A stretch of 53,990 bases of DNA from Candidatus Aminicenantes bacterium (GTDB taxonomy: Bacteria > Acidobacteriota > Aminicenantia > UBA2199): contig DSBM01000030.1 of assembly GCA_011049425.1 (NCBI GenBank), positions 1 to 53,990 on the forward strand, given 5' to 3'. Under the pieces are notes generated by a model that was not told the origin of the DNA, ran no database searches, and was given only the letters and a program-made list of their open reading frames with translations. The translations under genes and the position numbers were made by a program. How positions within the stretch are numbered: position 1 is the first letter of the stretch; each line of letters starts with the position of its first letter. Shown here piece by piece: positions 15,945 through 39,209 of this stretch.

Positions 15945-16743
15945 GAGTCTGTGTTTGGAATGGAGAAAGGGGTTGTACACGGACCGTTACCGGGTGGCTC
16001 TGTGACCGATAACCGGATTCCTCCCGCCCGTTCAAGGTCAGCTTGACCACCGAGGGATCTCCCAGGCTGAGTTGAAGATCGTATCCATTCACCACGAATT
16101 CTTCACCGGGCAGAAACACCCGCGATATCTCCACCCGCCCCCCGCGGCGAACCTGCGCCCAGCAGCGGGAGGAAAACCGTGCATATATGGCGGCGGGAGG
16201 GGTGGCAACACCCCAGACCCGGGTTTCCTGATCCAACCAGGTGCAAAGACTGCCTTTACGCCGGGGCTCGACAGGCGTTTGCAATCCGGGCTGCATCCAT
16301 CCCGGCTCAAAAGCCGCGCCGGTTAAGTGGAAATCGGGCGCAGCGGCAAACCAGTTAAACACACGATTGCGGTTTGTCGCAAAGAGAAATGCCGCGGCAA
16401 CCACCAGCAGCAATACAACCAGCAGGAACCTCAGCCGGTAGCGGCGACGGAACCGATATACCTGGATTTTCTCAACAGTATGGGCGGCATGGCCTTCTCC
16501 GGTTGGAGAGGAAGGCGGTTGAATCGGGTACCGGGCCAAAAACGATGCGGGATCCTCTCCCAAAGCCCGCAGGTACTCACGGATAAAATGATGGCGATAA
16601 AACTGCCCCCGAACGGAATGAAAATCACCCGCTTCCATTTCCGAGAGTACGCGTTCAGATATCCGGGTACGGCGGGAAAGTTCCTCCAGGGAACACTCGT
16701 GACTGACGCGGATCTCCCGCAAAGCCTCTCCGACTTTCTCCAT
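15922..16743 (-). CDS. RodZ-like helix-turn-helix membrane protein
   Basis: A 273-residue single-pass protein. Residues 1-75 are an Xre-type helix-turn-helix of the RodZ kind (EALREIRVSHECSLEELSRRTRISERVLSEME, then the conserved REYLRALGEDP). A membrane span lies near residues 104-124 (LRFLLVVLLLVVAAAFLFAT) after a basic patch (RFRRRYRLR). The outer part (about 190-255) contains CWAQVRRGGRVEISRVFLPGEEFVV, the start of the DUF4115 beta domain. RodZ links MreB to the cell-wall machinery and cell shape. No other shape genes are in view, so the symbol is withheld. The promoter geometry suggests a leaderless message. Confidence 0.8.
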   Translation of the reverse strand: MEKVGEALREIRVSHECSLEELSRRTRISERVLSEMEAGDFHSVRGQFYRHHFIREYLRALGEDPASFLARYPIQPPSSPTGEGHAAHTVEKIQVYRFRRRYRLRFLLVVLLLVVAAAFLFATNRNRVFNWFAAAPDFHLTGAAFEPGWMQPGLQTPVEPRRKGSLCTWLDQETRVWGVATPPAAIYARFSSRCWAQVRRGGRVEISRVFLPGEEFVVNGYDLQLSLGDPSVVKLTLNGREESGYRSQSHPVTVRVQPLSPFQTQTHEHDPVP

Positions 16744-16752
16744 GATAGATAT

Positions 16753-16780
16753 ATTGTAGAAAAAGCAATCGGGATGTCAA
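16753..16780 (-). promoter_or_regulatory. Promoter of the RodZ-like gene, near-leaderless geometry
   Basis: Read on minus: TTGACA (16780-16775), 16-base spacer, TACAAT (16758-16753), then nine bases to the ATG at 16743. The intervening bases are ATATCTATC, with no ribosome binding site. Confidence 0.6.
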
Positions 16781-16846
16781 CCGGGAAAAGTTGGAGAAAA
16801 GGTGTCAGGTTACGGGGTAGGGGCGGTTCGCTGTGAGAAATGAGGA

Positions 16847-17725
16847 CTAAGACATGAGCTGGGAGCGAAACCCTTTCCCCAGCACTGCATAGGTGTCGGA
16901 AATCACCACAAAAGCCTCGGGATCGATCTCTTTGACGAACTCACGCAACTCGGGAATCTGCTTGCGATGGATCACGGACATGAGGAGTTCCCGGTCGCGT
17001 TTGAGATACATGGAACGGGATTTCAACGCCGTTCCTCCGCGGTGCAGAGAAAACAGGATAAACTCCTCGATCTGTTTGCCCTTGTTTGAGTTGATAAAGA
17101 CCATCTTGCTGTGATTCCATCCCTCCAGGATGCGGTCGATCACCCAGGTGGAAATATACAGCACAATGTAGCCATAAAGGGGCGCTTCCCACGAACGGAA
17201 CGACAGCCCCGATGCGGAAATGATCACGAAATCCACTGCCATGATGGCCATTCCCACCGTCATTCCCGTCCACTTGCTGATGACCTGCCCCAGGGTATCG
17301 GTACCCCCGGTGGACGCCTTGCTGCGAAAAATGATTCCCAGCCCGACACCGATGCACACCCCCGAATAGATGGCAGCCAGCAGGGGGTTGTCCGTGGCGC
17401 CCGGCAGTTTCAGAATCTCGTAAAAAAAGTCGATCAGCAGGGAAGAGAGCACCATGCCAAACAAACTCTTGACCCCGTAACGACTGCCCATCACCCGGAT
17501 TCCCAGGACAAAAACCGGGATATTGAAAATCATAATGAGGATGCCGACCGGAAGGTTGAAAAAATAGTTCAGGATAATGGCAATGCCGGAAACGCCTCCC
17601 GGAACCAGGTGATGAGGAATCAGGAACAAGGCGTAGCCCAGTCCCATAATCAGGCTCCCCAGCACGATCTTGACCATGTCCCTGGCTTGCTTCCAGGCAA
17701 ACATATGTCTGATATTCGCGTTCAT
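16847..17725 (-). CDS. YitT-family membrane protein (DUF161-DUF2179)
   Basis: A 292-residue protein. The ATG at 17725 is used because AAGGA stands seven to eight bases upstream; a GTG at 17743 is an alternative. Five or six spans run from residue 16 to about 185: IVLGSLIMGLGYALFLIPHHLVPGGVSGIAIILNYFF is the YitT hallmark, followed by FRSKASTGGTDTLGQVISKW. The C-terminal soluble part (about 205-285; SLHRGGTALKSRSMY, MSVIHRKQIPELREFVKEIDPEAFVVIS) is the cytoplasmic DUF2179 domain. The family is widespread, and its substrate is not known. Confidence 0.88.
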   Translation of the reverse strand: MNANIRHMFAWKQARDMVKIVLGSLIMGLGYALFLIPHHLVPGGVSGIAIILNYFFNLPVGILIMIFNIPVFVLGIRVMGSRYGVKSLFGMVLSSLLIDFFYEILKLPGATDNPLLAAIYSGVCIGVGLGIIFRSKASTGGTDTLGQVISKWTGMTVGMAIMAVDFVIISASGLSFRSWEAPLYGYIVLYISTWVIDRILEGWNHSKMVFINSNKGKQIEEFILFSLHRGGTALKSRSMYLKRDRELLMSVIHRKQIPELREFVKEIDPEAFVVISDTYAVLGKGFRSQLMS

Positions 17726-17813
17726 TTGTTTTCCTTGATTCACGGCGGCCGACTCCCCGTGATGAAAGCTGTATTGTATGTGCTTCGGTCGCCGGGATCA
17801 AGATGCGGAAGTG

Positions 17814-17842
17814 TTGATTTTTCATCTTTCAAGCCCTATAAT
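17814..17842 (+). promoter_or_regulatory. Promoter of the 17859 membrane protein, short leader
   Basis: TTGATT (17814-17819), 17-base spacer, TATAAT (17837-17842). The transcript would start near 17849, leaving about ten bases before the ATG at 17859 and no Shine-Dalgarno sequence. Confidence 0.6.
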
Positions 17843-17858
17843 TGCCGCCGACACCATC

Positions 17859-18755
17859 ATGAAAAGATATCACGTCTCAATTCTGTTATGGATCATCGCG
17901 TTCTGCCTCACCTTGGCGATCGCTGTTTTTCAGCGCGTCACCGGACCGACCTGGCCGGTCCGTGGAGAGGAAAAGGTCAACAACATGCCGGTCCAGTACC
18001 GCTTTTTGCGCAGTCAAACGGCCCATACGCCTCTGGAGGTGCGCGTAAAAACCCGGCATAACGGGCTGAATCTGGCATTAAAATATCGCCGTTTCCGCGC
18101 TAACGAAGAGTGGCATGAAACGGTCATGCACTGGGACGGTGACGGTTACGTGGCCCACATATCGGGCCAACCCCCGGCCGGAAAAATCGAATACCAGGTC
18201 TATTCCGGCACTGCCGCAGAGTTAAAACCGTTGCTGCCTTCTTCAATCGTGGCGCGCTTCAAGGGACACGTGCCCACGGTTTGGCTCATTTTTCACATCC
18301 TGTTCATGATGTCCGCCATCTTGTTGTGCGCCCGCACGGGCCTGGAATGTCTGCGTCCGGATGCCCGCCTGTCGCGGCTGGTGGGGGTTACCCTTTCCGC
18401 CGTAATCCTGGGCGGCCTGGTCTTCGGCCCTCTGGTTCAATATTTTGCTTTCGGCGACCTTTGGACCGGTTTCCCCGTGGGAACCGACCTCACGGACAAC
18501 AAAACTCTGGTGATGGTCCTGTTCTGGCTGGCAGCCTTTTTTCTTTACCGTCGCAGCCGTTGGTGGGTTTTTGCCGCGGCGGTATTGATGCTGGCCGTTA
18601 CCCTGATCCCGCATTCCATGTGGGGATCCGAGCTGGATTACGCAAGCGGGGAAATGCGCAACAAGTTCTCTCGCCCGGCCATGGCACCGTCTTTCCCAGC
18701 CCCGGGAAGCGGCATGCGGAATCGCCTGGACCGGTTCAAGTCCAGACAAGCGTAA
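17859..18755 (+). CDS. Multi-span membrane protein with an extracytoplasmic domain, function unknown
   Basis: A 298-residue protein; the ATG at 17859 follows the promoter by 16 bases, and the open frame upstream would precede the transcript start. A first span (about 6-24) is followed by a 110-residue soluble region with a beta-rich look (TPLEVRVKTRHNGLNLALKYRRF, YVAHISGQPPAGKIEYQVYSG), resembling an Ig-like or carbohydrate-binding fold. Four more spans follow (VPTVWLIFHILFMMSAILLCA; LVGVTLSAVILGGLVFGPL; LVMVLFWLAAFFLYRR; WWVFAAAVLMLAVTLIP). The tail is short and basic. I do not recognise a family and see no catalytic residues. Confidence 0.7.
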   Translation: MKRYHVSILLWIIAFCLTLAIAVFQRVTGPTWPVRGEEKVNNMPVQYRFLRSQTAHTPLEVRVKTRHNGLNLALKYRRFRANEEWHETVMHWDGDGYVAHISGQPPAGKIEYQVYSGTAAELKPLLPSSIVARFKGHVPTVWLIFHILFMMSAILLCARTGLECLRPDARLSRLVGVTLSAVILGGLVFGPLVQYFAFGDLWTGFPVGTDLTDNKTLVMVLFWLAAFFLYRRSRWWVFAAAVLMLAVTLIPHSMWGSELDYASGEMRNKFSRPAMAPSFPAPGSGMRNRLDRFKSRQA

Positions 18756-18795
18756 GGGTGCGGATGGGGGGCATGCCCGCCAGAGCATGAAAGAC

Positions 18796-19053
18796 TTACT
18801 GCTCCGGTTCCCGGCTGATCACGCCCCGTTCGATCAGCAGGTTCATCTGCTTGTTCACCGCTTCAGCAAAACGCAGGAAATGGGGGATGGTCAAATGCAG
18901 GTAGGAATGAACATTGACCACATCCGGATCACGGATGTCACGGATACCAAGTCCCATGCATACTTCTTCGGGATTGGTATTAAAAGAGATCAGGTTGGCA
19001 TAGAGGTGCTCGGCCCCCTCGTCAATCAATTCAAAAGATTCTTTTTCAGACAT
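18796..19053 (-). CDS. Small DUF3467-like protein
   Basis: An 85-residue protein. The ATG at 19053 follows GGAG with five bases between; a GTG at 19059 is less likely. The pattern YANLISFNTNPEEVCMGLGIRDI, then VVNVHSYLHLTIPHFLRFAEAVNKQMNLLIER, matches the small DUF3467 family ('YaN.v.i...peEf.l.F', then 'v..tP.hakrl...L...l..ye'). These are small cytoplasmic proteins of unknown role. The gene lies 20 bases after the sulfotransferase gene on the same strand, and the two are probably one transcript. Confidence 0.6.
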   Translation of the reverse strand: MSEKESFELIDEGAEHLYANLISFNTNPEEVCMGLGIRDIRDPDVVNVHSYLHLTIPHFLRFAEAVNKQMNLLIERGVISREPEQ

Positions 19054-19073
19054 AAACACTCCGGTAATGAGAA

Positions 19074-19781
19074 TCAGCGGGAACGCAAGCTATGGCGCTC
19101 GAGTTTCTGCAACAGCCGATAAAGGCGCTGCTCTGGTTCGGTCAATACCAAACGGCTGCCCGCCTGTGTGCGGAAAGACTGCTTGATCACGCCCAAATCC
19201 ACGGAAAAACCCAGGCGCTGGAAGGCCTCACGAATGCGCGGGTGACCGTGAATCAGCGATTCGTAGCTGATCACAATGCTCTTTTGAATGTTCTCGTGAG
19301 CCGCAACCAAAGCGTTGTTATTGGCAAACCAATCCAGGCGAAAACTGGAAATCCCCCGCCTGAGCATGCTGCTGTACACATCGGCAGGGTGACGGAAAAT
19401 CAGCACCGTCCGAATGTTCTTGCTGATATGGCGGTAAAAAAACAATGCGGGGATATGGACGATCTTCAGTCCGGCCAATCCCCGGGTGTTGTTGAGCAAC
19501 CTCACCACCCGGTTCATGACGGCAGTGTTCTCCGTCGTCATGGCATGGCTGATCAACTCCTTTTCCAACTCCTTGGCCTCCGCCAGCTCGAAATACCCGT
19601 CCCGATTGTAGTGATCCGCGCTGAGGTCGGACGGAAAATGGACTCCGGCGCTCTGCAATAACTTGCAGGCCAGTGAAGTGCCGCTGCGGGGATGACCCGC
19701 GACAAAAATGCCGTTGTTCAACACAACCGGTTCTTCACTTACGGGCGAGCGATGTGTACTGCTCACATAAACCCCCATCAT
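19074..19781 (-). CDS. Sulfotransferase-family protein
   Basis: A 235-residue cytoplasmic protein predicted to transfer sulfate from PAPS to a carbohydrate or other hydroxyl. FVAGHPRSGTSLACKLL (about residues 26-42) is the 5'-phosphosulfate loop (family: 'RSGTt.l..lL'), and IRTVLIFRHPADVYSSMLRR holds the 3'-phosphate Arg and Ser (family: 'R.P.dv..S'). A start at ATG 19781 or the adjacent ATG 19778 is possible, and no SD is clear. It sits back-to-back with the polysaccharide locus, which fits sulfation of a surface glycan, although the acceptor is not shown by the sequence. Confidence 0.75.
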   Translation of the reverse strand: MMGVYVSSTHRSPVSEEPVVLNNGIFVAGHPRSGTSLACKLLQSAGVHFPSDLSADHYNRDGYFELAEAKELEKELISHAMTTENTAVMNRVVRLLNNTRGLAGLKIVHIPALFFYRHISKNIRTVLIFRHPADVYSSMLRRGISSFRLDWFANNNALVAAHENIQKSIVISYESLIHGHPRIREAFQRLGFSVDLGVIKQSFRTQAGSRLVLTEPEQRLYRLLQKLERHSLRSR

Positions 19782-19862
19782 TCAAACTGGCGAAACCACC
19801 AGGAGATGAATTGTACCACAGCCGAAAAGCCAAATACAGGGCGTCATTTGAGACAAACGCGG

Positions 19863-19892
19863 TTGACACCCACATCGCGGTTGGGCTAAGAT
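19863..19892 (+). promoter_or_regulatory. Promoter of the NusG-like gene, leaderless geometry
   Basis: TTGACA (19863-19868), 18-base spacer, TAAGAT (19887-19892), then six bases to the ATG at 19899. No ribosome binding site. This is probably the promoter of the polysaccharide operon. Confidence 0.65.
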
Positions 19893-19898
19893 TGAGGC

Positions 19899-20417
19899 AT
19901 GGAAAGGGAACGGGAGGATCAGTGGTTTATTATCCATACCCGCCCACGCCAGGAATCGGTGGCTGAGTGCAGCCTGTTGTCTTTAGACATCCGGGTATAC
20001 CTACCTCTTTACTACGCCCGTATCAAACGCAATAAAACCAAAGTTCCTATCCTGTCCCCCCTTTTCAAAGGCTACCTATTCGCCCAGTTCCCCGTGGAAT
20101 CGTTATTCCACAAAGTTCGCTACTGTCGGGGTGTCAAAACCGTCCTGGGTGGCCAACACGGGCTATGGACCATTGATGATGTCCTGATCCAGAGTATTCG
20201 TGAGCGGGAAAAAGACGGCGTGGTGGTACTAAAAGAGCGTCCACAACGTTTTTCCCGCGGAGATGTGATCCGGGTGGATGAAGGGGATTTTGACGGCTGG
20301 GAAGGAGTATTTTACGAAGAACTGCCCGATAACGAGCGCGCGGTCATTCTTTTAACCAATGTTCATTTCTCAAGCAAGCTGATCGTTCCAAAGAGTTACC
20401 TGGTGGCCGAGAAATGA
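19899..20417 (+). CDS. NusG/RfaH-type transcription antitermination factor, first gene of polysaccharide cluster
   Basis: A 172-residue specialised NusG paralogue. The NGN domain spans about 1-105 (WFIIHTRPRQESVAECSLLSLDIRVYLPLYY; LFKGYLFAQF; VRYCRGVKTVLGGQHG). A KOW-type C-terminal domain follows (RFSRGDVIRVDEGDFDGWEGVFYEELPDNERAVILL). Such factors (RfaH, UpxY, LoaP) help RNA polymerase through long polysaccharide or natural-product operons, and placement as gene one of such a cluster is characteristic. It is followed by the phosphatase-like gene after 25 bases. The leaderless promoter leaves no 5' leader in which an ops-type recruitment element could sit. Confidence 0.82.
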   Translation: MEREREDQWFIIHTRPRQESVAECSLLSLDIRVYLPLYYARIKRNKTKVPILSPLFKGYLFAQFPVESLFHKVRYCRGVKTVLGGQHGLWTIDDVLIQSIREREKDGVVVLKERPQRFSRGDVIRVDEGDFDGWEGVFYEELPDNERAVILLTNVHFSSKLIVPKSYLVAEK

Positions 20418-20442
20418 ATCTGGGAACCCGGCCACCCCGGCC

Positions 20443-21735
20443 ATGAGCCGAATCCACCACCCCAACCACTTGCTGATCATCGGCCTGGATGGTGTCCCTG
20501 TTGAACTGGTGCGACAATACACTGAAAACGGCACCATGCCCGTCTTGGGTGAATTGCTGCGGGGCCATTCCCCGCAAGCCATGACGGTCAGCCTTCCGGA
20601 TGTATCCGCGGTTTCCTGGTCCGGTTTCATGACCGGCCGGGATTCAGGTTATCACGGAATCTTCGGGTTTACCGACCTGGAAGAGCACAGTTACCGGGTG
20701 CGGTTCCCCGACTCACGGGACCTGCGGGAAACGCCCTTTTTTATGCAGGGAAACAGGCGCTCCATTGTAGTCAACCTGCCGGCGACCTATCCCGCCCGGC
20801 CGTTCAAGGGGATTCTTATTTCCGGATTCGTAGCCCCAAACCTGCAGAAAGCCGTATGGCCGCAGGAACTGTACCCCCTGGTTAAAAAATCCGGCTACGT
20901 TGTTGACGTCGATTTCGGACAGGCGCACAAGGAGCCGGAAAGATTCCTGTCAGATCTCTACACCACCCTGCGACAACGATTGAATTTGTCCCTCCACCTG
21001 ATGCGTCATGAAAAGTGGAACCTTTTCATGTTCACGGTTACGGGAACGGACCGGTTGCATCACTTTTTTTTCGATGCCTGGAACCGCAACGATCATCCCC
21101 GGCACAAGGACTTCGTCGATTACTACATGGAACTCGACAAAGTGCTGGGCGAACTGCTCATGGAAGCCCGCCGCCACAAACCCCTGGAATGGCTGATCCT
21201 GTCCGATCACGGGTTCGAATCACTGGTTACGGAAGTCAATATCAACCCACTTTTGCGCGAATGGGGATATGCCATGCCTGAAGCTGCGGATGCGGAAGGG
21301 ATGCGCCTCCCGGTAAGTCACAGCCATGCATTTGCACTTGACCCGGGGCGGATCTACCTCAACACCAGAAACCGATTCCCCTCAGGCCGGGTGGAACCGC
21401 GAGAGAAAAAACGCCTCATGGATGAACTGACCACCGGCTTTTGTGGCTTCCATTTTAACAACAGGCCGGTGATTCGCGCGGTTCACCGCGCCGAAGAGAT
21501 TTACGGACTTCCCCTGCGACATCGCGGGCCGGATCTGGTACTGGAAGGCATGCCCGGATTTGACCTCAAGGCCGGTTTTTCACGCCAGTCGGCATTCCAC
21601 TCAGACAGGTTCCGCGGCACTCACCGCCGCGACAACGCCTTTATTTCCTGCTCGCAACCCGGCCTGATTCCCCGGAATCCCACCATCTTCCAGGTTCGAA
21701 ATGTCATCGAGCAAATGCTCGAAAGCCGGGATTGA
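20443..21735 (+). CDS. Alkaline-phosphatase-superfamily enzyme (type I phosphodiesterase-like)
   Basis: A 430-residue protein with no signal peptide. LLIIGLDGVPVELVRQY (metal-binding Asp), DVSAVSWSGFMTGRDSGYHGIFGF (nucleophile Ser/Thr region), TGTDRLHHFFFDAW (Asp and His metal ligands), EWLILSDHGFESL (Asp-His) and the C-terminal GTHRRDNAFI supply the two-metal site. It resembles the nucleotide pyrophosphatase/phosphodiesterase branch. Such enzymes are found in polysaccharide loci, where they may act on phosphodiester or nucleotide-sugar intermediates, but the substrate is not shown. The gene follows the NusG-like gene by 25 bases and ends before a new promoter for the fucose-synthase gene. 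Confidence 0.75.
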   Translation: MSRIHHPNHLLIIGLDGVPVELVRQYTENGTMPVLGELLRGHSPQAMTVSLPDVSAVSWSGFMTGRDSGYHGIFGFTDLEEHSYRVRFPDSRDLRETPFFMQGNRRSIVVNLPATYPARPFKGILISGFVAPNLQKAVWPQELYPLVKKSGYVVDVDFGQAHKEPERFLSDLYTTLRQRLNLSLHLMRHEKWNLFMFTVTGTDRLHHFFFDAWNRNDHPRHKDFVDYYMELDKVLGELLMEARRHKPLEWLILSDHGFESLVTEVNINPLLREWGYAMPEAADAEGMRLPVSHSHAFALDPGRIYLNTRNRFPSGRVEPREKKRLMDELTTGFCGFHFNNRPVIRAVHRAEEIYGLPLRHRGPDLVLEGMPGFDLKAGFSRQSAFHSDRFRGTHRRDNAFISCSQPGLIPRNPTIFQVRNVIEQMLESRD

Positions 21736-21840
21736 AGCCGCTTGTTCAGCAAGCAACCCCTGGATTCAAAGGTGAAAGCCAAATAAAGATTCACATTCCT
21801 CCCATAGAGAGAAACAGGCCTCCCGGCTCCGGCAAAAAGA

Positions 21841-21869
21841 TTGTCAATCACTAGCTATAGTGCTAAAGT
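21841..21869 (+). promoter_or_regulatory. Promoter of the GDP-fucose synthase gene
   Basis: TTGTCA (21841-21846), 17-base spacer, TAAAGT (21864-21869), with TGC directly before the -10 (extended type). Start near 21876, giving a leader of about 33 bases with AGGAGG (21898-21903). Confidence 0.5.
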
Positions 21870-21908
21870 CTGATTCCGGCAATTGGTGATTGTGCACAGG
21901 AGGATAAT

Positions 21909-22976
21909 CTGAACCGCGAGAAAAAAGTTTTCGTGACCGGACACAGAGGCCTGGTAGGCTCAGCGATGGTACGCCGATTAAAACATGAAGGGTACACAAA
22001 CATCCTCACCCGTACCCACAACGAGCTCAACCTTGAAAACCAAGCTGACGTAAATGCCTTTTTTAAAAAAGAAAGACCCGACTATGTTGTCCTGGCTGCC
22101 GCCAAAGTCGGTGGCATTTGGGCCAACAAAACCCAGCCTGCTGAGTTCATTTTCAGCAACCTTTCGATTGCCGTCAATGTGGTGGATGCCGCTTATCGAT
22201 TCAAAGTTCAGAAACTCATGTTCCTTGGCAGTTCTTGCATCTATCCAAAACTAGCTCCACAGCCTCTTAAGGAAGAGTACTTGCTCACTTCACCACTGGA
22301 ACCCACAAATGAGGCCTACGCGATCGCCAAGATAGCCGGCCTGAAGATGTGTCGCTATTACAACGAACAATATGGCACCAACTTTATTTCCGTCATGCCA
22401 ACTAACCTCTTCGGCCCAAACGATAATTATGATCTAAAATCATCCCATGTTCTTCCCGCAATGATCCGTAAATTCCACCTGGCGCGCTGCCTTGAACGCG
22501 AAGACTGGGCGGACCTGCGTCGTGATCTGTCGCATCGACCCGTGGATGGTGTGACTGGCCAAAGTGATGAGAATGATATTCAAGGCATCCTGAAGAAACA
22601 TGGCATCCGCAGTGGGGGCAAAGACGTCCAGGTGATTTTATGGGGTTCCGGATCACCAAAACGCGAATTTCTGTACGTAGACGACCTGGCGGATGCCTTG
22701 CTGTTTCTCATGGAAAATTTCAACTACAGCGATGTGGGTGAAATCATCAACATCGGAAGCGGTGAAGATCTCTCTATCCGCGAATTGGCAGAGATGGTTG
22801 CGGTCATTGTGGGTTTTTCCGGTAACATTAATTGGGACACAAAGAAACCGGACGGCACCCCGCAAAAATTGTTGGATGTATCCCGCCTGCGCAATCTCGG
22901 CTGGTCGCCGGGGCATGAACTTGAAGCCGCGATTCGGACCACCTATGTAAATTACCGTTCATGTACTTGCTTATAG
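21909..22976 (+). CDS. fcl: GDP-L-fucose synthase, apparent CTG start
   Basis: The enzyme (GDP-4-keto-6-deoxymannose 3,5-epimerase-4-reductase) makes GDP-L-fucose. Rossmann loop KKVFVTGHRGLVGSAMVRRL, catalytic GSSCIYPK (Ser) and NEAYAIAKIAGLKMC (Tyr-xxx-Lys), plus NLFGPNDNYD and LYVDDLADALLFL, are all family marks. A 45-residue insert (about 200-250, HRPVDGVTGQ) matches a longer subtype I know from some bacteria. There is no ATG at the N terminus: CTG at 21909 sits five bases after AGGAGG, while the next start, GTG at 21933, would remove the first beta strand. The C-terminal end is odd (TTYVNYRSCTCL). The first half is visibly more AT-rich than its neighbours. The partner GDP-mannose dehydratase is not in view. 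Confidence 0.87.
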   Translation: MNREKKVFVTGHRGLVGSAMVRRLKHEGYTNILTRTHNELNLENQADVNAFFKKERPDYVVLAAAKVGGIWANKTQPAEFIFSNLSIAVNVVDAAYRFKVQKLMFLGSSCIYPKLAPQPLKEEYLLTSPLEPTNEAYAIAKIAGLKMCRYYNEQYGTNFISVMPTNLFGPNDNYDLKSSHVLPAMIRKFHLARCLEREDWADLRRDLSHRPVDGVTGQSDENDIQGILKKHGIRSGGKDVQVILWGSGSPKREFLYVDDLADALLFLMENFNYSDVGEIINIGSGEDLSIRELAEMVAVIVGFSGNINWDTKKPDGTPQKLLDVSRLRNLGWSPGHELEAAIRTTYVNYRSCTCL

Positions 22977-23082
22977 CTCGATATAAAGCATCGCCTTTCG
23001 CCTTGGCATGGATCAAGAGCAACATCCAATTGGAAAGGCGGAATAAAAAAATGCCGAAAGCGAGGAAATGGAAGTAGATTAT

Positions 23083-23850
23083 ATGAAACCAGATTGCCGT
23101 GGGATGGGACTTCCCATTTCTTCCTGTAACTTTTCCACACTGAAAACGAATATGCTGGAATGGATTCGTAAAAGGCGCTGCCACACAGTGATGACCATGA
23201 GTTTCCCAATGCTGGCACCGTACCAACAAGATGCGGATTACCACGACGCCATTGATCACAGCGAAGTGGTTCTGCCTGACGGCATGGCAGTTGTTTGGAT
23301 GTCGAGATGGTGTGGGGACCCAATCCGCGAACGTCTTTCCGGACCGGACTTTTTCGAGCTTTTCTCGCAGACAGCTTCAATGTATCAAATGCGTTATTGC
23401 CTGCTGGGATCAACTCCCGAGGTACTAAAAGCCATGCGATTGCGCCTACTGAATGAATACCCGGGTATCACGGTAAGCGCATCTATTTCCCCGCCGTTCG
23501 GAGATTGGGAAGAACAGGTAGATCGGGAACTGGTAACCGCGGTGAACAACAGCCACGCGGATATTCTCTGGGTGGGAATCACGGCCCCCCGCCAGGAGGT
23601 CTGGCTGCACCGTCAGCGCAACCAGTTAACCGTTCCCGTGGCGGTTGCCATCGGTGCGGCATTTGATTTTTTCGCCGGAACAAAAAAAAGGGCCCCGAAT
23701 TGGATGCGGCGATGCGGCATGGAATGGTTGTATCGGATTATGCAGGAGCCCCTGCGCATGTTGCCCCGTTACCTGCGTAGTCTGCCGACAGCTGTAAAGA
23801 TTCTCATTTCCTGTCGGCGCTCGTTTCCCGGCCAAAAGAGAGAACCATGA
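23083..23850 (+). CDS. WecG/TagA/CpsF-family glycosyltransferase (GT26)
   Basis: About 255 residues; the ATG at 23083 follows GGAAG by eight bases, while ATG 23068 is an alternative with a poorly spaced site. The family adds N-acetylmannosamine-type sugars (for example N-acetylmannosaminuronate) to lipid-linked glycans at the cytoplasmic face. SEVVLPDGMAVVWMSR carries the catalytic Asp motif, LWVGITAPRQEVWLH corresponds to the 'G.gaPkQE' loop, and IGAAFDFFAGTKKRAPNWMRRCGMEWLYRI is the C-terminal basic/aromatic region. The gene overlaps the next as ATGA (23847-23850). Confidence 0.88.
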   Translation: MKPDCRGMGLPISSCNFSTLKTNMLEWIRKRRCHTVMTMSFPMLAPYQQDADYHDAIDHSEVVLPDGMAVVWMSRWCGDPIRERLSGPDFFELFSQTASMYQMRYCLLGSTPEVLKAMRLRLLNEYPGITVSASISPPFGDWEEQVDRELVTAVNNSHADILWVGITAPRQEVWLHRQRNQLTVPVAVAIGAAFDFFAGTKKRAPNWMRRCGMEWLYRIMQEPLRMLPRYLRSLPTAVKILISCRRSFPGQKREP

Positions 23851-24554
23851 CCCGGCAACCGCGAATGTTGCTGATGGTCCCGCTCCCTCCCCCTGTGCAT
23901 GGCGCCGGCCTGATCAGCCGGCAGGTCGTAAATTCCCGCCTGCTGAAAAGGTTTTTCCAAATCCGGGTGCTGCCCTTGCGCTTTACAGAGCAGCCGGCAT
24001 CGCTGGGTCGATTCTCCCCAATCAAGGTGTTCCATGCCCCGGGCATTTCACTGAAACTGGTGGGGGAGCTGGTTTTTCACCGTCCCGACCTGGTTTACGT
24101 GGTGGTGACTCCCCGAGACTACTCCCATTCCCGCGACCTGGTCGCCTGGGTTTCTTCTGAGTGTTTGCATGCCGTGCCCAACGGACTCCCCGATCTGCCT
24201 GAGCCGGAACGGGAGAGAATCCCGCTGAAGAAACCGCCCATGTTGCCGTTCCTTTCCAACCTGAAGGTCAACAAGGGGGTTCATGTGTGCCTGGAAGCGC
24301 TGCGGACCGGCCTGCCGGTTGTGGCCACTCGTGAAGGCTCCATACCCTGGATTGTATCGGAGGGAAAAAGCGGTCTGCTGTGCCGCAAAAATGATGCGCA
24401 CGACCTGGCCGCCTGCATCGAGCGCCTTCTGATAAAGAGCGAGCAGTGTGCGCAAATGGGCAGGGCCGGGCGGGAACGGTTTCTGGAACGCTTTACCCTC
24501 GAACGATTCGAAAGCCGCTTGCTTCATGTCATACGAATTGCCCTGAAAAAATGA
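23847..24554 (+). CDS. GT4-family glycosyltransferase with two apparent in-frame internal deletions
   Basis: A 235-residue protein where GT4 relatives have about 370. The start MLLMVPLPPPVHGAGLISRQVV is the classic GT-B N-terminal loop; PDLVYVVVTPRDYSHSRDLV leads abruptly to VSSECLHAVPNGLPDLPE, skipping the region that normally completes the N-terminal domain. Then FLSNLKVNKGVHVCLEALRTGLPVVATREGSIPWIV joins the 'KG' loop of the C-terminal domain directly to its 'EA..sGlPVV' motif, dropping the donor-binding strand block. The reading frame is intact. It could be a decaying gene, a regulatory remnant, or an assembly artefact. Its ATG overlaps the previous stop, and the flippase gene begins just after. 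Confidence 0.6.
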   Translation: MTRQPRMLLMVPLPPPVHGAGLISRQVVNSRLLKRFFQIRVLPLRFTEQPASLGRFSPIKVFHAPGISLKLVGELVFHRPDLVYVVVTPRDYSHSRDLVAWVSSECLHAVPNGLPDLPEPERERIPLKKPPMLPFLSNLKVNKGVHVCLEALRTGLPVVATREGSIPWIVSEGKSGLLCRKNDAHDLAACIERLLIKSEQCAQMGRAGRERFLERFTLERFESRLLHVIRIALKK

Positions 24555-24555
24555 A

Positions 24556-25791
24556 ATGTTGAGACGATTGTTCAACACTTCTGTTTTTGTTTCCCTGTCG
24601 CGGGCTTTGACCACGGGAACGAATCTGGGGGTGATGTTTTTCGTGGCGCGATGCCTGGATGCCGAAAGTCTGGGCGTTTACGGAATCTGCTTCGCCGTGA
24701 TGTACCTGGTCTATACATTAACCTCCTTCAACCTCGAGGTGTTCCTGGGCAAAGAGGCAGCCGTGGCCAGGGACAACCTGCAGCGGATGCAAAACCTCTT
24801 CGGCAAAGCAGTCACGGCCACTGCGATCGGATCGGTCATCACCCTACCTGTATGGGGGGCGGCCCAATGGATATACGGGGATGTCTCAGGGGGATTGCTA
24901 GCCCTGGCCGCGGCCTGCGGTGCGCTGTTGGGCCTGGACATGAACCTGAACGGTTTTTTGCTGGGACTTGAGCGGACGGAAGTGGAAACCGCGGTCAACC
25001 TGGGCTCTTCACTGGCTCTGCTCCTGCCCCTGGCGATCTGGTCCAGCCATATCGGGTTGGCCGGCGTATTCGCTTTAAGGGCCGCGGGATCAACGCTGGG
25101 AATCGGGGTGAAAGCCGCGGTTCTGCAACCATACTGGCGGAAAGGTATCACCCTGCCCCGGATGAGCTGCTTCCGCGACATCCGTTACTACTGGCTCGAC
25201 CATATCGCGGGATATTTCCTGCGCCAGGCGGACATCCTGCTGCTCTCGCTCTTCGTGGGCCTGAAAGAGCTGGGAGTGTATTTCCTGGCCCTGCGCATCT
25301 ACCTGGCCGTGGGCATCTTCGCCGAAGTCGGGACCCGCGCCCTGGTGCCCTTCTTTTCCCGCACCTACCATGGCATGGAGTCCCTCGCCATGGGAAAACT
25401 TCTGCGGCACATGTTGCTGATCTTCACAGGCTGCGGGCTTCTGCTGGGGATCCTCCTGGGTGTGTCCGGGAATTGGCTGATCTCGTTGTTCCGGCCGGCA
25501 ATTGACACCGGAGGAGTGTGGCTGCGCTGGCTGGCCCTGGCGGTTCCGTTGCGCATGGCGGCATTCACCTTGGGTGCATTCATGAGTTCTTCCCGCTATC
25601 AGAAACAGCAATTTATGATTCATCTCGCCGGCGCCGGAACGCTGATCCTGTTGACCGTCGTTCTGGGAGTTTTTCTCTCTGCATCCGGCGTACTCGCGGC
25701 CCGCCTGATCAGTGAAGCATGCGGGTTCAGCCTGGCAATGGCGGTGGTGTTCTTCAGATTGCCGGAGAGTCCGGAACTCAGGCATAGTTAA
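24556..25791 (+). CDS. Wzx-type polysaccharide flippase
   Basis: A 411-residue integral membrane protein of the MATE-like Wzx/O-antigen flippase group, predicted to move lipid-linked oligosaccharides across the inner membrane. Hydrophobic spans cover most of the length (about 12 helices). LRRLFNTSVFVSLSRALTTGTNLG and ARCLDAESLGVYGICFAVMYLVY are the typical N-terminal helix and 'lG.yg...a...l' signature; YYWLDHIAGYFLRQADILLLSLFVGLKELGVYFLALRIY is the mid-protein repeat of that motif. The start is ATG 24556, two bases after the GT4 stop. No Wzy polymerase is recognised in the locus. Confidence 0.87.
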   Translation: MLRRLFNTSVFVSLSRALTTGTNLGVMFFVARCLDAESLGVYGICFAVMYLVYTLTSFNLEVFLGKEAAVARDNLQRMQNLFGKAVTATAIGSVITLPVWGAAQWIYGDVSGGLLALAAACGALLGLDMNLNGFLLGLERTEVETAVNLGSSLALLLPLAIWSSHIGLAGVFALRAAGSTLGIGVKAAVLQPYWRKGITLPRMSCFRDIRYYWLDHIAGYFLRQADILLLSLFVGLKELGVYFLALRIYLAVGIFAEVGTRALVPFFSRTYHGMESLAMGKLLRHMLLIFTGCGLLLGILLGVSGNWLISLFRPAIDTGGVWLRWLALAVPLRMAAFTLGAFMSSSRYQKQQFMIHLAGAGTLILLTVVLGVFLSASGVLAARLISEACGFSLAMAVVFFRLPESPELRHS

Positions 25792-25839
25792 TGGATGAAT
25801 CATCCCGGCCACGCACCGCCCCACATGGTTCCCACCTCT

Positions 25840-25880
25840 CCCAGAGGCCTGCACAGGCTCGTGATGCGCTCTGGGGGTTT
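25840..25880 (+). terminator. Hairpin, possible terminator after the flippase
   Basis: CCCAGAG (25840-25846) pairs with CTCTGGG (25869-25875), followed by GGTTTTCG. The T-run is short, so this may only reduce read-through. A new TATAAT lies at 25901-25906. Confidence 0.4.
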
Positions 25881-25942
25881 TCGCCCATAAGCGTTCCGGG
25901 TATAATGGTCCATCCTGGATCAAGGAATCCACGAGGAGCTGC

Positions 25943-26449
25943 ATGAGCAACAAACAGGTGTCCATCACTGAAGAGAATGTACGAATCGTGAATGTATGTC
26001 TTGGCCGCGATGTGCGCTGGTACGGCTTTATTAACCTGTACGGCTGCGAAATCGGTGACGAAACCCGGATCGGCACTTTCGTGGAGATCCAGAAAAACGC
26101 CGTGATCGGCAAGCGCTGCAAAATTTCTTCCCATACCTTCATATGTGAAGGAGTGGAAATCGAAGATGAAGTTTTCGTGGGACACAATGTCACTTTTATC
26201 AACGACAAATATCCCCGGGCCTGCAATCCGGACGGAAAACCCCAGACGGAGGCTGATTGGAAAGTGGAAAAGACACGAATCGGCCGACGGGCTTCACTGG
26301 GTTCGAGCGTGACCATCCTCGGAGGCGTCACCGTGGGAGAGGGGGCCATCGTGGGCGCCGGCTCCGTCGTTACACGCGATATCCCCGCCAACGCCGTGGC
26401 GGCGGGAAATCCCGCCCGGGTGTTGCGATTAATGAAACAGAATGAATAA
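25943..26449 (+). CDS. WbpD-like hexapeptide-repeat acetyltransferase
   Basis: A 168-residue left-handed beta-helix acyltransferase. Many hexapeptide repeats are visible ([LIV]-G-x-x-x-x: CEIGDETRIGTFVEIQKNAVIGKRCKISSHTF). VFVGHNVTFINDKYPRACNP matches enzymes such as WbpD/WlbB that acetylate a 3-amino-sugar nucleotide, and GEGAIVGAGSVVTRDIPANAVAAGNPARVL is the usual C-terminal coil. GAGGAG stands upstream. The likely role is making a 3-acetamido sugar donor; with the Gfo/Idh protein in the same locus it would fit a UDP-GlcNAc3NAcA-type path, though the aminotransferase was not seen. Confidence 0.85.
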   Translation: MSNKQVSITEENVRIVNVCLGRDVRWYGFINLYGCEIGDETRIGTFVEIQKNAVIGKRCKISSHTFICEGVEIEDEVFVGHNVTFINDKYPRACNPDGKPQTEADWKVEKTRIGRRASLGSSVTILGGVTVGEGAIVGAGSVVTRDIPANAVAAGNPARVLRLMKQNE

Positions 26450-27827
26450 ACAGGGCCTTTACCTGGCATTCGCCGATATCCTGGCTTTCATCGGCACTTA
26501 TGCCGGATTGCGGACCCTGTTCAAACGTCCGGCCATCCCCGTTACCGCTGCGGTACTGCTCGGCCTCTTCCTGGTGGTTTTCTGGTACTATCGCTTGTAT
26601 CGGGTAGAGGTGTTTTTCAACCGCCTGCAATACGCTTCGCGCGTCATGCGCACCGTACTGGTGGTGTTCGTGTTGTTCTGGGGCACATGGTGGTTCCTGC
26701 TCAAAACCCAATGGCCGGAGGCTTCACGCCTTCTCCTGGTCGGATTGTTCATGGGATTCGGACTCTTGTACCCACTTACGCTGCGCATGGCGATTGGACG
26801 CTGGTTGTTGCGGCGAACCCCGACCCGGTATCGATTGTCAACCGTGCTTAGAGACCTGCTAGTGAAAGGACCGGGCCGCATCCTCACGCGACTGGAAGCG
26901 ATGGATCCGGGAGAGCCCCCAGGTACCATGCGCGGCGGTCTTTTGCTGCTGGAATTTCAACCTTCGGCCCGCGCATCGACCCGGGCCGACTTGTGGCGGG
27001 AATACAGCGATTTTCTCAATACCGCCAAAAAAGAAGCTCTGGCTTACCGGGCAACCGTTATCATATTCAACCTCTACAACACGGAACTGAACCACGAGGG
27101 AACCATCATGGCATTGGGTGATTTCGGCGGGTTGCCCTTGTCCGGACATGGGCATAAGTGCTACCGCCGCATGGCCAAGCCTATGCTGGACCGGGTCTTG
27201 GCCATGCTGCTGCTACCCCTGCTGGCCTTGCTCCACCCCTTCGTGGCCCTGGTGGTGCGCCTGGAATTCGGGAAGCCGATCATTTTCCGTCAAATCCGGC
27301 TGGGGCGCCGGGGGAACCCCTTCCGCCTTTTCAAATACCGCACCATGCGGCTGGTATCTGGTTCCAATGCCGGAGATGTGGATTCACGTCACCGTGAATA
27401 CATCGCAACACTTCTGCAAGAAGAGGAACAGGCACGCCTCGATTCCGGCCGCCTCGTATCCGTTGACCAGCGGGTGCGCAAAATGCGCCACCGGGAAGAG
27501 ATCAGTTTCCCCGGCGCGATGTTGCGCAAGACCAGCCTGGATGAGCTGCCTCAAATCATCAACGTCCTGGCCGGACACATGTCTTTTGTGGGACCGCGTC
27601 CCGCCCTTCCCTATGAAGTCGAGATGTACCCCGCCTGGGCCGGAAAGCGCCTGGATTCCCCCCAGGGCATCACCGGGCTGTGGCAGGTGTCCGGCAGGGG
27701 AATGATGCCCCTGCATACATCCCTTTTCCTGGATGGCTATTACACGATGGAATATGATTTTTGGCTGGACTTGCTTATTTCCCTTCGGACACTGCGATCG
27801 GTTTTCGCTTTTTCCCGGGTATACTGA
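26442..27827 (+). CDS. Membrane sugar-phosphate transferase (WbaP/WcaJ-like)
   Basis: A 461-residue enzyme predicted to start polysaccharide synthesis by moving a sugar-phosphate from a nucleotide sugar to undecaprenyl phosphate. Four spans lie in about residues 5-125 (LYLAFADILAFIGTYAGL; AVLLGLFLVVFWYYRLY; VMRTVLVVFVLFWGTWWFLL; LLLVGLFMGFGLLYPL). The catalytic C-terminal part begins KPMLDRVLAMLLLPLLALLHPF, then FRLFKYRTMRL, LRKTSLDELPQIINVLAGHMSFVGPRP with the Asp-Glu pair, and GITGLWQVSGRG. The 120-residue middle is not a standard CoA-binding-like domain. It overlaps the acetyltransferase by eight bases. Confidence 0.88.
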   Translation: MNKQGLYLAFADILAFIGTYAGLRTLFKRPAIPVTAAVLLGLFLVVFWYYRLYRVEVFFNRLQYASRVMRTVLVVFVLFWGTWWFLLKTQWPEASRLLLVGLFMGFGLLYPLTLRMAIGRWLLRRTPTRYRLSTVLRDLLVKGPGRILTRLEAMDPGEPPGTMRGGLLLLEFQPSARASTRADLWREYSDFLNTAKKEALAYRATVIIFNLYNTELNHEGTIMALGDFGGLPLSGHGHKCYRRMAKPMLDRVLAMLLLPLLALLHPFVALVVRLEFGKPIIFRQIRLGRRGNPFRLFKYRTMRLVSGSNAGDVDSRHREYIATLLQEEEQARLDSGRLVSVDQRVRKMRHREEISFPGAMLRKTSLDELPQIINVLAGHMSFVGPRPALPYEVEMYPAWAGKRLDSPQGITGLWQVSGRGMMPLHTSLFLDGYYTMEYDFWLDLLISLRTLRSVFAFSRVY

Positions 27828-27839
27828 ACCGGTTCCTCA

Positions 27840-27848
27840 TGCTATAAT
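27840..27848 (+). promoter_or_regulatory. Extended -10 element for the Gfo/Idh gene
   Basis: TGCTATAAT (27840-27848). No convincing -35 is present, consistent with an extended -10 promoter. The leader of about 48 bases carries AAAGGAGG before the ATG at 27903. Confidence 0.45.
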
Positions 27849-27902
27849 GGTGCCCCATTCGGTTGGCTCTCTACAAAGGAATCAGCAGATAAAGGAGGCG
27901 GC

Positions 27903-28880
27903 ATGCGCATAGGCGTGATCGGTACCGGCTACTGGGGACGGAACATCGTGCGAAATCTCTCGCGCCAAAGGGAAGTGGATTCCCTGGTGGTTTGCGACCG
28001 GGATCCGGGAGCTTTGCGTTCCATTGCCGCCGCATTCCCTACAGTCGAGACCGTCCCAGATATTTCAGTTTTCCTTAATGATCCGGAACTGACCGGCGTT
28101 TTCGTTGTTACTCCGCCGGAAACGCATTATGAAATGGGATGCCGCGTCCTGGATGCGGGCAAGCACCTGTATATCGAGAAACCCTTTGCCATCTGCAGCG
28201 ACCATGCGCGCGACCTGGTAAAACGAGCTGCGAAACATTCCCTGCAACTCATGAGCGGCCACACATTCCTGTATTCCCCACCCGTACGCGAGATCAAGCG
28301 CATTGTTGAACGGGGCGACTTGGGCCGGGTGGAGTTCATCTCTTTCCGTCGCATCAATCTCGGTATCCATCAGCGGGCGGTAAACGTGCTGTGGGATCTT
28401 CTGCCCCATGATCTTTCCATGGCGCTTTACTGGTTGGGCGACGTGCGACTGCGCCACGCACGCTGCTTTCTGAAGACTTCAGTGGGAAAGCATCCCGATG
28501 TGGGATTTGTGTTCATGGAATTTGACAACGCCACCATGATGGAAGGCCTTGTCAGTTGGCTTTCGCCACGCAAACTCCGTGAAACCATCATTGTGGGCAA
28601 CCGGCGCATGCTGATCTACAACGACACGGAGCCGGAAGAAAAAATCAAGATTTACGATAAAAAAGTGGAAGAGTTGGAACCCGGCGATTTCGGTGAGTTT
28701 CAATTGGCATACCGGGTGGGGGATGTAATCAGCCCGCGTATCGATTCATCCGAGCCCCTCAGCCTGATGGTGGCGGATTTCATTTCCGCCATTCGTGAAG
28801 GCCGCCCACCCCTGAGCGATGGAGAATTCGGCCTGCGCATCACGGACATGATCGAACAGGCCCTTCAGGACTCAAATTAA
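27903..28880 (+). CDS. Gfo/Idh/MocA-family sugar dehydrogenase
   Basis: A 325-residue NAD(P)-dependent oxidoreductase. The N-terminal Rossmann domain reads MRIGVIGTGYWGRNIVRNL, with VFVVTPPETHYEMGCRVLDAGKHLYIEKPFA giving the conserved EKP (catalytic Lys). The C-terminal substrate domain has a His (VLWDLLPHDLSM) in the expected place. It is most like the WlbA/WbpB group that oxidises the 3-position of a UDP-sugar, but that assignment is inference from context. A strong AAAGGAGG precedes the start. It is the last gene of the locus. Confidence 0.82.
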   Translation: MRIGVIGTGYWGRNIVRNLSRQREVDSLVVCDRDPGALRSIAAAFPTVETVPDISVFLNDPELTGVFVVTPPETHYEMGCRVLDAGKHLYIEKPFAICSDHARDLVKRAAKHSLQLMSGHTFLYSPPVREIKRIVERGDLGRVEFISFRRINLGIHQRAVNVLWDLLPHDLSMALYWLGDVRLRHARCFLKTSVGKHPDVGFVFMEFDNATMMEGLVSWLSPRKLRETIIVGNRRMLIYNDTEPEEKIKIYDKKVEELEPGDFGEFQLAYRVGDVISPRIDSSEPLSLMVADFISAIREGRPPLSDGEFGLRITDMIEQALQDSN

Positions 28881-29154
28881 GCCCGATTCCTTTGCAAATG
28901 TCCCCGTTTCTTCAACTCGTTCTCGTGATGAGATCGTTCAAGTACTTGTGATGGGGACTCCCGAGTGCTTGTGATGAGAAAATCTTCGGACCTGTGATGA
29001 AAAAACAAAAGCTATGAATAACGAATAGATAATAAAAAAGCCCTCCACTGGCCATTTCGGTACTTGTAGAAGGTAGAATGTAGAAAAAAGCAGAATCTCG
29101 AAAGTACGCGGGTTATACTTTCAGCTTTTCAACTTTTCACTTTTCACTTTTCAC
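28881..29154. other. Gene-free interval between the Gfo/Idh gene and metH
   Basis: No gene is visible in 274 bases. The first part repeats CTTGTGATG and similar phrases (28947-28998). A hairpin (GAAAGTA 29100-29106 with TACTTTC 29116-29122) is followed by a T-rich stretch. This could end the plus-strand polysaccharide transcript, though it lies 220 bases from the stop. Confidence 0.5.
29125..29154 (+). repeat. Short tandem repeat CTTTTCA
   Basis: A 7-base unit CTTTTCA is present three times in a row (29133-29153), with one more copy at 29125-29131 separated by a single base. It abuts the metH stop codon on the opposite strand. A related stretch (TTCAACTTTTCTACTTT) occurs after the histidine kinase near 44588. 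Confidence 0.7.
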
Positions 29155-32100
29155 TTAATGCCTTCCTGTCACCTTCTTTTCAACTTTATACCTCGGCACC
29201 ACCAGGGCCGTGACCGAAGCCTCGGGCACCAGTTGCCAGTTTTCCGTCAGTTCCAGTTCCAGACGCGGAAAATCCAGCAGGCGCGCCAACACCCGCTGCT
29301 CGGAGAGATCCGGCCAGGAGGGATATCCCGGGCTGAAACGCCGGCTGTCGCGGCGGGTTATTTTCATTTCATCCACGATAATCTGGTGAACGGCTTCGGC
29401 CATGGCTTCGGCCAGTTGGGCGCTGAACCCATACCACAAGAGGTAACCCACATAGTCTTGCGCAGCAAAACGCTGTTGCACCAGTGATGCCAGAAAAGCC
29501 CCAGTAGTCACGGCCAGTAATGGCACCACATCCCGCTCGCGGCAAAACCAGGCGGTCGGCGGAATGGGGGCGGGGGCAAAAGTCAGCGCTTCACTGTTCG
29601 CCTCAAGGGCCAGAACATTGCCGTTCGCGGTAACCCGGCCACTGAAATATCCGTAGGTTGCGGCAAATTCCGTACAATCCTTTTGCCGCAATCTCTCTAA
29701 AATCCCTTCCAACTGCGCCGCCGACTCGCTGCCCTCACCCATTTTCCAGCGCGTGCGAAACAGGGTCCCGCGATCCAGGAAAGATAGGATCTCATCCAGG
29801 GTCAGCGAGATCCGGCGCACCCCCCGGAAAGGCGCGTTCAGGGATTCGGTGGGGGTCACGGCCCGCCTGGGAGGGGGCGGGGAAACATGCGATGGCCCAG
29901 GCTGATGCGGTGCCGGCGCGGCGTTTCCCTGCAGAATGCGCAAGGCTTCGAACGCATCAGCCGCGTAATGGACGGGACCGGAATAAACCGGGACGAGTTC
30001 CTTGCAAACAAAATCCCGGGTCAGGGCGGCGCCGCCGCAGATCACGGGCAAAGACAAATTCTTTCTCTGCATCTGCAGCAGCAATTCCCTCATCTCGTGG
30101 ACGGATTGCACCAGCAAGCCGCTTATCCCCAGGGCGTCGGGACCATGTTCGCGCACGGCGTCGATAATGTCGTTACTGCCTTGGTTGATTCCCAGGTTCA
30201 CGATACGGTAACCGTTGTTGCTCAAAATGATATCCACCAGGTTCTTGCCGATATCATGAACATCGCCGCGCACCGTTGCCAGCACCATGGTCCCCCGGGT
30301 GACCCGTTGCGCTGATTCCAGGTCGGGAGCCAGGTAGTCGACCGCCGCCTTCATTACCTGGGCGGATTTCAGCACAAAGGGCAATTGCATGCGACCGGAA
30401 CTGAACAACCCGCCGACTCGTTGCATGGCGGGCAACAGGTGCCGGTTGATGATGTCGAGCGCGGAAAGATTCTGGCGGGCCGCGGCCAATATGGCTTCAA
30501 GGCCGGCGGTGCGCCCTTCCACAACCGCCGCGGCCAGGCGTTCCAGCACGGGTTCCAATGGAGTTCCCGTTGCGGGAAGGCTGTCTTTTTCGCGGGAAAA
30601 ATGATCCAGGACCCTCTCCAGGGGAAGAACGCTCGCAGAGGAGCGGTTAAATATCAGGTCCTCAGCCAGCCCGCGTTCGTCGGCCTTGATCATGTTCAGG
30701 GGCAGGACCTTGCCGGCATGAAAAATGGCGGCATCGAGACCTTTGCGCACCGCATGGTATAGAAACACGGCGTTGATGATCCTGCGCGCGGCCGGTTTCA
30801 GTCCATAGGAAATGTTGCTGACACCCAGGATGGTGCGGGCTTGCGGCAAGTAGCGACGCAACAGGGGCAAGACTTCCAGGGTCTCAATCCCCGCGTCGCG
30901 CAGCCCCTCATCTCCGGAAGCCAGGGTGAACGTCAGCGGATCAAAAAAAAGCGCCCCCGGTGAAATGCCGGCTGACATGCACAAGTCATACAGGCGACGG
31001 CAGACCGCCAGCTTGTGTTCCCGGGTCCGGGCCATGCCTTCTTCGTCAATGGCCAGGCAGATCAGACCCGCGCCATAGCCTTTCGCGAGTTCAATAACCC
31101 GGGCGGCACGCGTACCGCCGTCCTCGAGGTTGATGGAATTGATCAAGGCGTGACCGCCGTAGTGCTTCAGCCCGGCCTCCAGGGCGTCGGTGTCCGTGCA
31201 GTCAAACACCACCGGGATCAGCAATTCCCGGTTCAGGCGCCGGGTCACGGCCGCCATGTCGGCGGCTTCGTCGCGCCCCGCATAGGCAACGGACAAGTCG
31301 AGCATATGGGCGCCCTCATCCTGCTGAAGGCGCGCCATTTCCACCATTGCGTCCACGTCTTCGGCCAGCAGGGCGCGGCGGAAGGCGCGGCTGCCGTTGG
31401 CGTTCGTCCGTTCGCCGATGATCAGCGGCGCCGGCTCCACCCGGCTGGCCTGGTGCAGAAACAGCGATGTAAATTCGGGTTGATATTCCGCTGCATGAAA
31501 AGAGGGGGTTATGCCTTCAAGCGCTTGCTGTAATGAGCGGATATGCGCCGGAGTGGTTCCACAGCAGCCTCCCAGAAGGCGAACCCCGCAATCACGCGCG
31601 AATCGACTCATGGTCACGGCGAAGTCACCGGGAGACAAATCAAATACCGGTACACCATTCTCAATTCGGGGCATGCCCGCGTTGGGAACCACGATCAGGG
31701 GTAAGGGGCAATGACGGGACAGACGCTCCACCGCTTCCCCCATTCCTTCCGGCCCGGTGCCGCAATTAATGCCGATGGCCGCCGGTTTCAGGGGCAGCAA
31801 AGTATGCATGGCCGTCAGCACATCACTGCCCAGAAGCATTTTTCCGCCTTCAAGGGTAACCTGCAGAACCAGGGGCATGGAGCGTCCACATTCTTTAAAC
31901 GCTTGCCGTACCCCGGCAACTGCGGCCTTGACCTGAAGCAGGTCCTGGGCGGTCTCCACCTGGATCAGGTCGACCCCCCCCTCCACCAGGCCCAGCGCCT
32001 GCAGGTAATATGCATCGCGCAAGGTGTCGAACCCCACGTGCCCCAGGCTGGGTAACAGGGATCCCGGGCCCATGGATCCGGCCACGAAGCAAGGCCGGCC

Positions 32101-32448: not shown

Positions 32449-32460
32449 GGATAAAGAACC

Positions 32461-32637
32461 TCAGTGGCGGGAGGGAAAACGCACGACCAGCGGACAGGTT
32501 CCGCTCAACGCGCTCAACAGCGTTACCAGCCCCAGCAGGCCCACCCAGTTGGACGTCCACAAGCCATAACCGATGATGGCCAGGGAGAGTACGATCCGCA
32601 AAACCTGCGTGAATGATGCGCGCCGAGTTGCATTCAT
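32461..32637 (-). CDS. 58-residue DUF2892-like membrane protein
   Basis: A 58-codon ORF (MNATRRASFTQVLRIVLSL, then two short helices). The ATG overlaps the recD2 stop as ATGA, and it ends 12 bases before metH. VLRIVLSLAIIGYGLWTS and WVGLLGLVTLLSALSGTCPLV are two membrane helices; the SGTCPLV end is the hallmark of the small YgaP-type DUF2892 family. Its role is unknown in that family. A TATAATGCC sequence lies just upstream inside recD2, six bases before this ATG, so a private leaderless promoter is also possible. Confidence 0.7.
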   Translation of the reverse strand: MNATRRASFTQVLRIVLSLAIIGYGLWTSNWVGLLGLVTLLSALSGTCPLVVRFPSRH

Positions 32638-34853: not shown

Positions 34854-34889
34854 TATACCGGGTCCCGGAGCGTATTGAAATCCACCGGG

Positions 34890-34918
34890 TTTACTTTTTG
34901 CCCGGCTCATGTTACTAA
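34890..34918 (+). promoter_or_regulatory. Promoter of the 34925 barrel gene, leaderless geometry
   Basis: TTTACT (34890-34895), 17-base spacer, TACTAA (34913-34918), then six bases (CTGGGC) before the ATG at 34925. No ribosome binding site. It overlaps the possible upstream start of recD2 on the other strand. Confidence 0.45.
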
Positions 34919-34924
34919 CTGGGC

Positions 34925-35476: not shown

Positions 35477-35482
35477 CCGGCC

Positions 35483-35520
35483 GCAGTGTGTCAACGCAGT
35501 GTGTCAACGCAGTGTTGACA
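35483..35520 (+). repeat. 13-base direct repeats and inverted repeat before dnaG
   Basis: GCAGTGTGTCAAC is present twice in a row (35483-35495, 35496-35508), followed by a partial third copy GCAGTGTTGAC. Within it TGTCAAC (35502-35508) is an inverted match of GTTGACA (35514-35520), and TTGACA (35515-35520) looks like a -35. A -10 (CATACT, 35541-35546) is 20 bases away, which is long, so the promoter is tentative. Confidence 0.6.

Positions 35521-37325: not shown

Positions 37326-39209
<1,884 letters not shown>

Follow-up and report, generated by a model that had tools for sequence, protein, structure and literature searches.

The gene at positions 23847-24554 of the window (the whole stretch of DNA analyzed, 53,990 nucleotides) is probably a recently inactivated GT4 glycosyltransferase gene, a loss-of-function remnant in a decaying surface-polysaccharide operon. 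Its reading frame is uninterrupted, with no internal stop or frameshift, and it differs from the full-length ortholog of the one other genome of the same genus (G001) mainly by two in-frame internal deletions with short direct repeats at their ends. That it is a remnant kept for translational coupling, a new minimal protein or an artefact is in each case less likely than a recent loss of function. The genes and junctions of the locus are listed below.

23068-23850, plus strand: WecG/TagA/CpsF-type glycosyltransferase; its stop codon overlaps the GT4 start (ATGA, 23847-23850).
23847-24554, plus strand: GT4 (group 1) glycosyltransferase remnant, 235 aa; uninterrupted open reading frame with a partial match to Pfam Glycos_transf_1.
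24134-24141, plus strand: junction 1 (CGACCTGG); 162 bp are absent relative to G001, where they lie between two copies of GACCTGGC.
24291-24298, plus strand: junction 2 (CTGGAAGC); 234 bp are absent relative to G001, where they lie between CTTGAAGC and CTGGAAGC.
24556-25791, plus strand: Wzx-type flippase; starts 1 base past the GT4 stop (TGA A ATG, 24552-24558).
25795-25890, plus strand: 31-codon stub, left by a third deletion of about 1.2 kb; the G001 counterpart encodes 442 aa (AMP-binding / CoA-ligase-like).
25943-26449, plus strand: hexapeptide acyltransferase, intact.
26442-27827, plus strand: polyprenyl-phosphate sugar phosphotransferase, intact.

Relatives were searched for in 100 genomes, the window's own included. 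G001 was the one other genome of the same genus found among the matches listed, and the three pieces of the remnant match a single unbroken frame of 360 codons in it at 67-73% identity (among the matches listed). The DNA of the two genomes was compared over a 19.9-kb piece of the window. The ortholog (P0002, 360 aa, contig C91) occupies the equivalent position relative to the downstream genes of the operon; the contig end removes its first nine or so residues, so that these and the upstream gene are not comparable. In the DNA and codon alignments the two genes differ by two large gaps and by a single codon, and their C-termini diverge slightly; amino-acid identity is 73.8% over 225 aligned codons, and the retained pieces are collinear. 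The first gap comprises 54 residues (P0002 89-142, 162 bp) and follows residue 96 of the window protein. The second comprises 78 residues (P0002 191-268, 234 bp) and follows approximately residue 147; its edge can slide within the repeat. A preliminary description, made from the window alone, had read the gene as a GT4 gene shortened by two clean in-frame deletions near residues 100 and 150, with the remaining parts in order, and had proposed an alignment with a full-length relative. That alignment, two large gaps against one 360-codon frame of the same genus with shared downstream gene order, agrees with it on each of these points. Two features were not visible from the window alone: the in-phase direct repeats at both joints, and the third deletion, which took most of the next gene but one.

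Among 142 genomes of the class, 11 have matches to the complete G001 protein at E <= 1e-25 (the window genome and G001 counted). Apart from the window's own, every one of these matches falls in a frame of 337-428 codons, in some cases truncated by a contig end; the match in G034 is listed with a TGA within the aligned stretch. Long frames are likewise seen in all six homologs drawn from the family and class. Gene order was inspected in ten outgroup regions, and in four of them (L060, L062, L063 and L065) a full-length GT4 gene stands beside WecG-type, hexapeptide-transferase and sugar-phosphotransferase genes. On this comparison the long form is ancestral and the short form derived, and the homology of the retained parts together with the conserved gene neighbourhood identifies the remnant as GT4 by descent. 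Protein scans of genome contigs and viral contigs returned no close relative of the remnant and one distant match in one scan; with an alignment of the full-length proteins as query, nine distant GT4 proteins of viral contigs were found, a set too small and too divergent to serve as an alignment for structure prediction. The missing segments have no close copy elsewhere in the window assembly, where distant paralogs only were detected.

These searches bear on the proposal that the gene encodes a new minimal protein with its own function, for instance as a catalytically inactive partner of the other glycosyltransferases still present. The open frame and the purifying-type substitution pattern described below would suit such a protein, but no truly short homologue was seen in the related genomes (the 100, among the matches listed, and the 142 of the class, own genome included). 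Three short-frame matches that were inspected (L067, L068 and L069, in genomes G027, G033 and G097) begin at contig ends; the matches listed also include a frame of 70 codons in G042:C96. The preliminary description had named a family of similarly short homologues with a defined fold as one finding that would overturn its reading of a shortened gene, and none appeared in these searches; its own suggestion of a minimal protein loses ground for the same reason and with the loss of the catalytic signature. A minimal protein is an extremely improbable explanation.

Each half of the protein has lost conserved blocks. The first deletion removes the block around CSVHERG and ALVKSP. The second removes a block that in G001 begins near KGVYVC and extends to FPTLKEAFGN, and with it the first glutamate of E-x7-E, the catalytic signature motif of GT4 enzymes. 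This motif reads EAFGNVLLE in G001; the window retains only the second glutamate, at LEAL. Six outgroup homologs share 47 invariant columns that G001 also has, and 16 of these are deleted in the window. The Glycos_transf_1 match of the remnant is limited to model positions 107-172 of 172 (protein 146-211), while that of the G001 ortholog extends over 9-172; the missing 54 and 78 residues include most of this domain, and the complete domain is absent from the window protein. Relative to the full-length ortholog, residues essential for the ancestral activity have been lost. Single-sequence structure prediction of the 235-aa protein gave a mean pLDDT of 32, a failed model that is uninformative either way. 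The loss of the first glutamate and of the invariant columns makes a working GT-B enzyme very unlikely, and judging from the sequence the remnant very unlikely catalyzes sugar transfer. The product would lack the central part of its N-terminal domain, along with the greater part of the C-terminal Rossmann domain.

In G001, direct repeats flank both lost segments, and one copy of each is left in the window. The two copies of GACCTGGC are identical over 8 bp and 162 bp apart. CTTGAAGC and CTGGAAGC, 234 bp apart, correspond to CT(T/G)GAAGC, i.e., 8 bp with one mismatch and 5 bp exact. When all deletions of 30-600 bp within the G001 gene were enumerated, 0.02% of the 437,957 possible ones had end homology of at least 8 bp and 0.7% of at least 5 bp. 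The junctions most likely bear the mark of short-homology deletion, for instance by replication slippage: two slips between repeats of about 8 bp, by slippage or other RecA-independent short-homology recombination, would have removed the 162 and 234 bp. In the available part of one report, variable segments between repeats of less than 30 bp in bacterial genomes are ascribed to short-homology recombination (PMC2884548). The present case resembles the short-homology-dependent illegitimate recombination or replication slippage described there in that the deletions lie between direct repeats well under 30 bp; relative to that part of the report, its sole addition is that both repeats of each pair share a codon phase.

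Both members of a pair are translated in one common frame into identical residues, D-L-A (RDLA/SDLA) for the first pair and L-E-A (CLEA/LLEA) for the second, and both deletions are therefore in frame by construction; the reading frame would have survived the two slips for this reason. Exact repeats 60-400 bp apart were counted in 23 open reading frames of the window chosen as likely genes. In phase were 489 of 796 repeats of at least 7 bp (0.61), 168 of 256 of at least 8 bp (0.66) and 46 of 70 of at least 9 bp (0.66). Since most short repeats are in phase, two in-frame events have a prior chance of around 0.4 instead of 1/9, and no selection is required to explain why the frame is intact.

This result weighs on the alternative that the frame has been kept by selection because the flippase requires translation up to the GT4 stop (coupling, or avoidance of polarity), the protein itself being idle. 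The arrangement of the genes is in its favour: the remnant frame is intact, its start overlaps the upstream gene (ATGA), the flippase follows after a gap of 1 base and lacks an evident Shine-Dalgarno sequence, and a crude scan from WecG to the flippase found no promoter-like site, with fewer sites than in shuffles. From the gene spacing and the lack of a promoter-like site, selection against polarity may help to keep in-frame alleles, but it is not needed, as in-phase repeats already account for the frame. Moreover, an open frame suffices for coupling, so that constraint at the residue level is explained no better than by recency. Selection for coupling is an unlikely explanation overall. The ATGA coupling that the preliminary description reported exists with the upstream WecG-type gene, whereas the downstream flippase follows after a 1-base gap; of the three options it had offered, remnant kept for coupling, minimal protein or misassembly, the remnant is favoured, though without the need for selection on coupling.

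For the retained GT4 part, pN/pS between the window and G001 is 0.277 (bootstrap 95% 0.207-0.370). The corresponding values are 0.255 for the flippase, 0.227 for the sugar phosphotransferase, 0.113 for the hexapeptide transferase and 0.097 for Gfo/Idh. At outgroup-invariant columns the window departs in 4 of 31 cases and G001 in 5 of 31, and profile scores show no difference between the two (permutation p 0.49; 23 homologs, 58 differing columns). The profile test used at most 25 homologs per gene and dropped columns filled by less than half of the homologs; as controls, the hexapeptide transferase and the phosphotransferase were each scored on four outgroups, while the flippase and Gfo/Idh were left unscored with too few outgroups. 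None of the pN/pS, invariant-column and profile tests gave a sign of relaxed selection after the loss. The GT4 codon alignment yields Ka 0.166 and Ks 0.942, from which the neutral share of the window branch is at most about 35% (a hand estimate with half of Ks per branch, this ceiling assuming that all non-synonymous changes postdate the loss and belong to the window lineage). As the retained part is no more decayed than the sister gene, the loss of the GT4 gene is probably recent. The absence of decay would fit a recent loss, but a retained function or an artefact would explain it just as well, and in this respect it counts against the reading as a remnant. It is very improbable that the purifying pattern reflects a present function, with a stably folded 235-aa protein kept in the polysaccharide machinery in a role without catalysis, or with the gene serving as an obligatory coupling leader of the flippase.

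Large losses in the region are concentrated in the GT4 operon. The 442-aa gene of G001 sits between the flippase and the hexapeptide transferase; its PF00501 match (E 0.00018) lies under the Pfam cut-off, and NCBIfam CoA-ligase models score far below their cut-offs on it. The window keeps only its first and last bases, in a stub that shares the G001 stop codon, and apart from this stub the window genome contains just one relative of the gene, a paralog with 25% identity. The source of the 39-base middle of the stub is not assignable, as 319 of 500 shuffles score as well. An insertion in G001 instead of a deletion in the window was considered and rejected, since the start and the last codons of the 442-aa gene both have homologous DNA in the window. 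This gene, the next but one to the GT4 gene, was almost wholly lost in the same lineage. Over 18.5 kb of aligned flanks (15662-16797, 16799-21699, 25851-29131 and 29191-38397) there is a single gap of at least 9 bp, of 26 bp and on the G001 side, as against three deletions in the operon.

Upstream of the GT4 gene, no counterpart of the WecG-type gene turned up in G001, whose draft genome has a listed completeness of 78%. G001 contigs C187 and C91 end at the borders of the segment 21700-23870 (fcl and WecG genes), which is either an assembly gap or a variable segment in G001. A GDP-L-fucose synthase-like protein of 347 aa is encoded at 21933-22976; it matches a 308-position model in two stretches, and about 40 residues appear to be inserted near residues 190-232. 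Downstream of the operon, 28916-29190 is AT-rich and intergenic, and is made of pieces that are dispersed in both genomes of the genus. Within the window's own genome it has 34 matches at E <= 1e-4, counting the stretch itself, and many others occur in G001. A search with Rfam over 21000-30000 identified no RNA family.

The third, more eroded deletion within the same operon also argues against an assembly or population artefact, i.e., a minor allele chosen by the assembler or an amplification product. The assembly of the window genome is a draft in 171 contigs, and the retained part is without decay, both of which would be compatible with an artefact. Homologies of 8 bp are, however, far shorter than assembly k-mers and too short to mislead a k-mer assembler, and no intact allele was found on other contigs of the assembly. 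An artefact is a quite improbable explanation.

Pseudogenization of a glycosyltransferase in a glycan pathway is documented for pglP of Neisseria (PMC6959607, from the available part of that paper). Both cases are lineage-specific inactivations of a glycan-pathway glycosyltransferase; the Neisseria pglP pseudogenes, as described in that part, carry frameshifts and an inserted repeat element, whereas the window gene carries two in-frame deletions on short repeats. The remnant offers a clean example of how a bacterial gene can be shortened internally twice and stay in frame with no selection acting on the frame, in what is otherwise ordinary decay of a surface-polysaccharide locus. As repeats in coding sequence are mostly in codon phase, slippage deletions would tend to leave open frames, and annotation pipelines would label such a remnant a short glycosyltransferase.
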